Position numbers and translations under genes: made by a program. Shown piece by piece: positions 27,276 through 30,210 of a stretch of 57,089 bases of DNA (the first letter of the stretch is position 1; each line of letters opens with the position of its first letter). Below the pieces are notes generated by a model. The model was not told where the DNA came from. It saw only the letters and a program-made list of their open reading frames with translations, and did not search any database. This stretch comes from Gammaproteobacteria bacterium (GTDB lineage: Bacteria > Pseudomonadota > Gammaproteobacteria > S012-40). Where the stretch lies: the NCBI GenBank assembly GCA_919902765.1, contig CAKKRP010000015.1:1-57089 (forward strand), written 5' to 3'.

Positions 27276-28787
27276 ATGTGCGGTATCGTCGGTATCGTCG
27301 GTAGAGGGCCTGTCAATCAGGCGCTATATGACGCTTTGACTGTTTTGCAACACCGTGGACAAGATGCCGCAGGTATAGTCACTAGCGATGAACGCAATTT
27401 GTCGTTGCGTAAAGACAATGGCTTGGTCAGCGATGTTTTCCACACCCGGCATATGCTCAAATTGACGGGGCGCATGGGCATCGGTCATGTGCGTTATCCT
27501 ACGGCAGGTTCTTCCGCCTCCGCCGAGGCGCAACCCTTTTATGTGAATATGCCTTACGGCATCACCTTGGCGCACAATGGCAATTTGACGAATGCCGAGC
27601 AGCTTAAACATGAAGTATTTCGCGACGACTTACGCCATGTGAATACCGAATCGGATTCCGAGATTTTGCTCAATGTATTCGCGCATGAGTTATGGTCGCA
27701 AGGCAAACATAAGCTAAGCGAGAAAGAACTGTTCGCGGCCGTGCGCGGTGTGCATGAGCGTTGTCGTGGCGCGTATGCGGTGGTCACTATGATTACCGGG
27801 TTCGGCATCCTGGCATTTCGCGATCCCTATGGCATCCGGCCCCTCGTCTATGGAGAACGCGATAACGATGCCGGTAAAGAATATATCATTGCGTCGGAGA
27901 GTGTGGCGATTCAAGCCTTGGGTTTCCGCCTCATCGCCGATGTGGAACCCGGCGAAGCGGTGCTAATTACTACCGAGGGCAAGGTGTATAAGCAACAATG
28001 CGCGAAGAATCCGCAGCGCTCGCCTTGTATTTTCGAGTATGTATATTTTGCGCGTCCCGATTCGATTATCGATGGAATCTCCGTTTATAAAGCGCGCATG
28101 CGTATGGGCGAAATGTTGGCCGATAAGATCAAACGCGATTTCGCCGGTGAGCATATCGACGTGGTGATTCCGATTCCCGACACCAGCCGGACCGCCGCAT
28201 TGGAACTGGCCCACGCATTAAATCTCGCCTACCGCGAAGGTTTTGTCAAAAATCGCTATATCGGACGCACGTTTATCATGCCGGGGCAACGACAACGCAA
28301 AAAATCCGTGCGCCAGAAACTGAATGCCATAGACCTGGAGTTTAAGGGCAAAAACGTGTTGCTTGTCGATGATTCCATCGTGCGCGGCACTACCTCGCAG
28401 CAAATAATTCAGATGGCGCGCGAGGCGGGCGCCCATCGTGTATTTTTCGCCTCGGCGGCACCGCCGGTCATGTATCCGAACGTGTATGGAATCGATATGC
28501 CTTCGGTGGAAGAGCTCATCGGACATGCTCGCGACGAAGCGCAGATTGCTACCGCAATCGGTGCCGATAGATTGGTTTATCAAGCATTGCCCGATCTCAT
28601 CGAATCTTGTCGACGCGGTAATCCGGCCATTGAGCGGTTCGACGCCTCGTGTTTTGACGGCAAATACATTACCGGCGATATCACCCCGGAATATCTGAAA
28701 CGTTTGCAGTTGTTGCGCAATGACGATAACAAAGAGGCCAGCCGCTCGGGTGACAATGAAGTCATAGATTTGCACAATACTCGCTAA
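27276..28787 (+). CDS. purF: Amidophosphoribosyltransferase
   Basis: [46 protein letters not shown]. Confidence 0.97.
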
Positions 28788-28863: not shown

Positions 28864-28892
28864 TTGACAAGTAACTTTGCCAAGACTATTCT
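28864..28892 (+). promoter_or_regulatory. Sigma70-type promoter for metZ leader
   Basis: TTGACA (28864-28869), 17-bp spacer, TATTCT (28887-28892); predicted TSS ~28899. Confidence 0.72.
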
Positions 28893-28898
28893 GTTAAT

Positions 28899-28957
28899 CA
28901 GCGCCGATTTGCACTTCCTTGCGGGCGCTTAAAAAATACCGCTAAGCGAAGAGGAAA
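28899..28957 (+). promoter_or_regulatory. SAM-II-like (SAM-alpha) riboswitch aptamer upstream of metZ
   Basis: P1 AGCGCC (28900-28905)/GGCGCT (28924-28929); conserved-like YGAUUUG, CUUGC, UUAAA, CGCUAA segments; pseudoknot UUCCU (28915-28919)/AGGAA (28952-28956). Confidence 0.82.
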
Positions 28958-28958
28958 T

Positions 28959-28989
28959 CCCGCTTCGATAGCCGTATGCGGGTTTTTTT
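28959..28989 (+). terminator. Intrinsic terminator = putative riboswitch expression platform
   Basis: CCCGC (28959-28963)/GCGGG (28978-28982) followed by seven T (28983-28989). Confidence 0.75.
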
Positions 28990-29028
28990 GTGCCCGCGTT
29001 TTTCCATATCCTGCGAAACGAGGGTTTT

Positions 29029-30210
29029 ATGCACGATCAAGATGATTTTAAATTCGATACATTAGCGGTACGCCATGGTATACAGCGTACCCACGAGGGC
29101 GAACACAGCGAACCCATCTTTGCGACTTCCAGTTATGTGTTCGCCAGCGCCGCCGAGGCGGCGGCGCGTTTTTCCGGCGAGTCGCCCGGCAATATCTATT
29201 CGCGATTTACCAATCCCACCGTGCGCGCTTTTGAACAGCGTTTAGCGGCGCTGGAAGGCGGCGAGGCCTGCGTCGCCACGGCATCCGGCATGGCGGCGAT
29301 TTTAAGCGCATGCGTGGGCCTCATGAAGGCCGGCGATCACATGGTGTCATCGCGTTCCGTATTCGGATCGACGGTCGTTTTGTTCAACAATTATTTGACA
29401 CGCATGGGCATCGCTACCTCATACGCTCCGCTCACCGATCTGGCGGCGTGGCGTGCGGCGATAAAATCGAACACGCGCGTCCTGTTTGTTGAAACCCCTT
29501 CGAATCCGCTGACCGAGGTGGCCGATATCGCCGCCTTGGCCGACCTTGCTCATCAACACGATTGTTTGTTGGTGGTAGACAATTGTTTTTGTACCCCTGC
29601 GCTGCAACAACCCCTAAAACTCGGTGCCGATGTCGTCGTGCATTCAGCCACCAAATATATCGACGGTCAAGGGCGTTGTCTGGGTGGCGCGGTGGTGGGC
29701 AATGCACAAATCGTAGGCAAGGATGTGTATGGTTTTTTGCGCACCGCCGGGCCGACGATGAGCCCGTTCAATGCATGGGTTTTCACCAAGGGATTGGAGA
29801 CATTGCGCCTGCGTATGCTGGCGCATAGCGCGGCGGCCCATGCCTTGGCGCAGTGGTTGCGCGAGCAGCCGGTGGTCGCTAAGGTGCATTATCCCGGCTT
29901 GCCAGATCATCCGCAACATGCGCTGGCGAAAAAACAACAGTCCGCCTTTGGCGGCGTGCTGTCATTTGAAGTGCGAGGTGGCAAGGAGGGTGCTTGGAAG
30001 GTCGTAGACAGCACGCGCATGTTATCGATCACTGCCAATTTGGGCGACGTAAAATCTACCATCACCCATCCTGCATCCACCACGCATGGTCGTTTAACGC
30101 CTGAGGCGCGTTTAGAATCCGGCATTAGCGATGGATTATTGCGCATTGCGGTTGGATTAGAAGATATTGACGATATTAAAGCGGACTTGTTACGTGGGTT
30201 TAACGCCTAA
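29029..30210 (+). CDS. metZ: O-succinylhomoserine sulfhydrylase (Cys/Met PLP enzyme)
   Basis: FDTLAVRHGIQRTHEGEHSEPIFATSSYVF; VHSATKYIDGQGRCLGG PLP Lys; metZ-like after purF. Confidence 0.94.
   Translation: MHDQDDFKFDTLAVRHGIQRTHEGEHSEPIFATSSYVFASAAEAAARFSGESPGNIYSRFTNPTVRAFEQRLAALEGGEACVATASGMAAILSACVGLMKAGDHMVSSRSVFGSTVVLFNNYLTRMGIATSYAPLTDLAAWRAAIKSNTRVLFVETPSNPLTEVADIAALADLAHQHDCLLVVDNCFCTPALQQPLKLGADVVVHSATKYIDGQGRCLGGAVVGNAQIVGKDVYGFLRTAGPTMSPFNAWVFTKGLETLRLRMLAHSAAAHALAQWLREQPVVAKVHYPGLPDHPQHALAKKQQSAFGGVLSFEVRGGKEGAWKVVDSTRMLSITANLGDVKSTITHPASTTHGRLTPEARLESGISDGLLRIAVGLEDIDDIKADLLRGFNA

Follow-up and report, generated by a model that had tools for sequence, protein, structure and literature searches.

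The window, that is, the whole 57,089-nt stretch of DNA that was analysed, carries the gene cluster folC – SPOR protein – cvpA – purF – metZ, and the interval between purF and metZ contains a sigma-70 promoter, a SAM-II-type aptamer and an intrinsic terminator, all on the plus strand (Table 1). Two equivalog models, both scoring over their cut-offs, identify the metZ product as O-succinylhomoserine sulfhydrylase, and GAGGG lies ahead of its ATG start codon at 29029. The first base of P1 is located seven bases past the −10 box, and transcription is expected to start at approximately 28898–28900, at this very base. Of 102 relatives, 69% have a similarly placed promoter-like site, with at least 9 of 12 consensus matches, right before P1, as against 2.7% of shuffles. 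The preliminary description had quoted all of this sequence correctly in strand and position, and its promoter with a start at P1, its intrinsic terminator and its downstream methionine gene are borne out by the letters themselves, by the relatives and, for metZ, by the two equivalog models and family synteny. MetJ was not found in the genome by a search whose E. coli control was positive, and was therefore rejected as a regulator of metZ. Additionally, the segment GCGGGTTTTTTTGTGCCCGC at 28978–28997 includes, after the T-run, GTGCCCGC, which is complementary to the 3' arm of the terminator; a complement of this type after the T-run is present in many relatives too.

Table 1. Features of the purF–metZ interval and its flanking genes (coordinates of the window)
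Feature	Position	Strand	Remarks
purF, upstream neighbour of metZ	27276–28787	+	TIGR01134, 528.9 bits
Sigma-70 promoter TTGACA-N17-TATTCT	28864–28892	+	−35 TTGACA 28864–28869; −10 TATTCT 28887–28892
SAM-II-type aptamer	28900–28951	+	between promoter and terminator
P1, 5' strand AGCGCC	28900–28905	+	covariance-model match and folding
L1 GAUUUG, with U10–U12 of the SAM-II pocket	28906–28911	+	GAUUU constant in the relatives' alignment A1
P2a, 5' strand CUUC	28914–28917	+	predicted duplex
P2b, 5' strand UUGC (U20 U21 G22 C23)	28919–28922	+	constant in relatives
P1, 3' strand GGCGCU	28924–28929	+	covariance-model match and folding
A-rich linker (L3) UAAAAAAUACC	28930–28940	+	11 nt long in 99/103 copies
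Predicted antiterminator AUAC.GCUA..CGAAG / CUUCG.UAGC.GUAU	28936–28977	+	13 pairs, −15.1 kcal/mol
P2b, 3' strand GC(U)AA, bulged U44	28941–28945	+	constant in alignment A1 of relatives
G replacing constant A47	28946	+	G only in L001 (window) and L017 among 102 valid copies
P2a, 3' strand GAAG	28948–28951	+	predicted duplex
Intrinsic terminator CCCGC...GCGGG-U7	28959–28989	+	arms CCCGC 28959–28963 and GCGGG 28978–28982; T7 28983–28989
metZ, O-succinylhomoserine sulfhydrylase, regulated gene	29029–30210	+	NF006003, 700.9 bits; TIGR01325, 583.9 bits

The aptamer combines a P1 helix of six pairs with a predicted P2 duplex, in which CUUCCUUGC and GCUAAGCGAAG form 9 pairs around the bulged U44 and one bulged C. 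P1 shows compensatory changes, with both sides altered at four of its six pairs among 32 aligned relatives. In the same 32 relatives, 94.9% of cells are paired in the P1+P2 structure versus 35–52% in slid registers, and double-change cells number 23 as against 9.4 in shuffles. P2b (UUGC with GC-bulged U-AA) is invariant across the aligned relatives and is therefore uninformative on pairing; its bases, like U10–U12, are known bases of the SAM-II pocket with roles described previously (PMC3764141). P2a receives weak support across the class: 78.6% of cells are paired, and the excess over shuffled partners is marginal; in the window, pairing of CUUC with GAAG is possible. P1, GAUUUG, UUGC and GCUAA are present as the preliminary description had read them, but its P2 of UUCCU and AGGAA, although possible, gives way to CUUC/GAAG, which stacks beside P2b, as the best candidate for the distal half.

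At gathering scores, no Rfam family matches positions 28864–28989. The SAM-II model RF00521 nevertheless aligns over its full length to 28891–28964 with 27.9 bits, a significant match (E 1.2e-4 with 4227 Rfam families searched) that stays under the gathering score of 36 bits, which is a curation cut-off and not a biological trait. Genome-wide (3.3 Mb), this leader is the best RF00521 match, with E 3.5e-4. With a covariance model of our own, built from 32 diverse relatives and leaving out the window's genus, the leader reaches 50.1 bits (genome-wide E 1.5e-11), as against 16.2 bits for the next match in the genome. Within the GTDB family, RF00521 matches 10 of 13 genomes, 4 of them over the Rfam cut-off, and all 10 copies lie directly before metZ and on its strand. 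Every family genome with an assembled metZ 5' end (10/10) carries the leader aptamer before the gene; the remaining three have a metZ truncated where a contig ends (G003, G009) or show no metZ (G005, 67% complete). The idea of a SAM-II-like riboswitch thus finds support in covariance models, in the relatives and in synteny, albeit under the Rfam gathering score. Judged by position and sequence, the leader is a homologous but divergent SAM-II variant and not a standard member, because A47 is a G. Among the other candidates, a supposed second SAM-II copy in the same genome (C157:4389) was rejected: it reaches 20.5 bits with RF00521, which is chance level, and 8.7 bits with our model, and has no metZ near it. 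Matches of GcvB, istR and Spd-sr37 in the window (E 0.2–8) are likewise chance matches far under their cut-offs.

GCUAAA is otherwise constant, but its third A is a G here, which the preliminary description had overlooked. This position contacts SAM: A47 is reported to be completely conserved and to contact the methionine part of SAM (PMC3764141). GCUAAA occurs in 100 of the 102 valid parsed copies, L137 having been left out as its parse fell inside coding DNA, and GCUAAG occurs only in the window and in its same-genus relative L017. A pattern search of 369 class genomes for GCUAA with any base other than A after it yields four matches, namely the window, one clear SAM-II copy (L222) with a C, and two that lie outside the usual motif surroundings. 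The genome of L222 (G326), whose position 47 reads GCUAAC, also has a GCUAAA copy. In both species of the window's genus the P2 internal loop is shorter by 2 + 1 nt (CACUUCC-UUGC versus NNUCAGC-UUGC). This allows a C to pair with the new G and leaves P2 almost uninterrupted. Between these two species 53 of 55 aptamer bases are identical and only 31 of 62 in the 60 nt upstream, which indicates that the variant is maintained. Such features raise an alternative in which a SAM-II-derived riboswitch with a pocket changed in this genus recognises another ligand (e.g., SAH, which SAM-II elements reject, or another SAM-cycle compound), or SAM much more weakly, and still attenuates metZ. The restriction of the G to this genus (2/102), the tightened loop with its possible C–G pair, and the retention of the variant in both species while their flanks diverge, as expected of a selected and not a decaying element, argue for it. 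However, all other contact bases (U10–U12, U20, U21, G22, U44, A45 and A46) are retained, as is the metZ target, and we regard this alternative as improbable. The related proposal that loss of A47 together with the tightened P2 altered ligand recognition, in specificity or affinity, with control of metZ kept, is likewise regarded as improbable. The A47 change provides a natural experiment on the recognition of the methionine moiety of SAM by SAM-II.

The region downstream of the aptamer suggests how such a leader may act. The predicted antiterminator is incompatible with both P2 and the terminator, and the complementarity of the strands makes antiterminator and pseudoknot mutually exclusive. 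Folded freely, the window leader forms P1 and the 13-pair antiterminator (−27.8 kcal/mol); with the P2 strands blocked, it forms P1 and the terminator. Similar features recur among the 102 leaders: 86 have a T-run of at least 5 T within 95 nt after the aptamer, and the platform complement of GCUAAnnn averages 6.5 nt versus 3.9 nt in shuffled sequences, reaching 7–8 nt in 67 of them. This complement is usually CUUUAGC and lies in the 5' half of the terminator. With the aptamer strands free, the terminator forms in 52 of 86 leaders; with the strands blocked, which mimics the ligand-bound pseudoknot, it forms in 82 of 86. For the sister species (L017), the minimum-energy fold of the free leader already contains the terminator and not the antiterminator, and folding energy alone therefore does not prove a switch. 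This strong, unaided terminator and the changed A47 would fit a decayed aptamer, with the purF/metZ terminator acting constitutively or by simple attenuation and no response to a ligand. Yet the aptamer bases are kept between the two species far better than the upstream sequence, and P1 is preceded by a promoter of its own; we consider decay very unlikely.

Taken together, these features make it highly probable that a divergent SAM-II-type riboswitch controls metZ by transcription attenuation and is OFF when SAM is bound, where SAM as the ligand and the direction of the switch are what we infer. In the proposed mechanism, transcription would begin at P1. When SAM is scarce, GCUAAGCGAAG (28941–28951) would pair with the downstream CUUCGAUAGC segment to form the antiterminator, leaving the arm CCCGC unable to pair, and the polymerase would continue into metZ. 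With abundant SAM, the ligand would sit between L1 and P2 and lock GCUAA..GAAG in the pseudoknot with CUUC.UUGC, so that CCCGC would be free to pair with GCGGG before U7 and transcription would stop, giving an RNA of approximately 90 nt. This platform, in the window and across the class, is in line with the first account of SAM-II, in which a near-consensus promoter just before P1 and frequent terminators were noted (PMC1273637), and with the SAM-II element of S. meliloti metZ, which produces a terminated sRNA whose level increases at high SAM (PMC9373788). The window shares with the latter (RF00521) the P1 and H-type pseudoknot with GAUUU, UUGC and GC(U)AA, a promoter a few nucleotides before P1, a terminator and the metZ target; it differs in the G for A47, the shorter P2 internal loop and the sub-cut-off score.

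The preliminary description, taking SAM-II to be known mostly from alphaproteobacteria, had considered an instance in a gammaproteobacterial-type background notable, a view that does not hold. In the class Gammaproteobacteria, taken here in the GTDB sense with the betaproteobacteria included, RF00521 at E ≤ 0.001 matches 125 of 370 genomes and 92 of 274 genera. Coxiella burnetii and Bordetella were already in the original 2005 alignment of SAM-II (PMC1273637), and further reports followed for gammaproteobacteria (PMC2258182) and for alpha-, beta- and gammaproteobacteria (PMC2704228). SAM-II in these groups was thus published in 2005–2009, and the window copy is not taxonomically surprising. 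In 2014, Leyn et al. gave two alphaproteobacterial orders as the only ones with SAM_alpha (PMC4239095). Only 32 of the 125 matching class genomes exceed the Rfam cut-off, so that most class copies fall under it and the class is badly under-annotated. Gamma- and betaproteobacterial copies share with the window the core GCGCCGAUUUGA..CAGCUUGCGGGCGC..AAAU..GCUAAAGCG and usually a terminator, and those of Cocleimonas flava (Gammaproteobacteria) and Methylophilales HTCC2181 (Betaproteobacteria), named examples that lie before metZ, share its target too. The copies read differ from the window in having A47 and the internal-loop sequence CAGC. Downstream genes in the class include metZ/metY, metK, metF and metX types, where metK, metF, metX and metY were assigned by eye from the protein start and not by family search. 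Among these, metK-like (SAM synthetase) genes in several class genomes follow the copies L109, L122, L129, L141, L147, L158, L172, L184 and L187.

Three further elements resemble the window leader. SAM-V has a related pseudoknot and binding bases, but was reported to lack the last 3' pairing present in SAM-II (PMC2704228), and it gives no match to the window at E ≤ 10 in the search of all Rfam families. The second, Bp2_287 (RF02424), was described as a Burkholderia sRNA (PMC3521395) and matches the strand opposite SAM-II at L142:84-221, L138:112-197, L104:1461-1605 and related loci. These opposite-strand matches are the ground for reading the locus as an antisense or trans-acting sRNA of the Bp2_287 kind instead of a riboswitch. 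However, the printed RF02424 consensus, when reverse-complemented, reads GCGUCGAUUUGAUUUCAGCUUGCGGACGC...ACAGCUAAAGCG, which is the same motif, and scores 30.3 bits against the profile of SAM-II copies, as compared with at most 2.7 bits in 200 shuffles. Moreover, promoter and terminator in the window both lie on the sense strand, which leaves the sRNA reading with a very small probability. In six named betaproteobacterial genomes, RF02424 gives one weak match, on the strand opposite the R1 match at the same place. From these comparisons, RF02424 appears to record SAM-II in the reverse orientation, on the wrong strand.

The third element, metXZ, was described as a novel, ligand-unassigned RNA with a pseudoknot and a terminator before betaproteobacterial metX and metZ, Methylophilales metZ included, at loci where Leyn et al. 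did not find SAM_alpha (PMC4239095). Because the Methylophilales metZ leaders L237 and L238 contain SAM-II, metXZ, likened here by description and locus, is probably SAM-II falling under the Rfam cut-off, which suggests that two separately described elements, RF02424 on the wrong strand and metXZ, are one known riboswitch.
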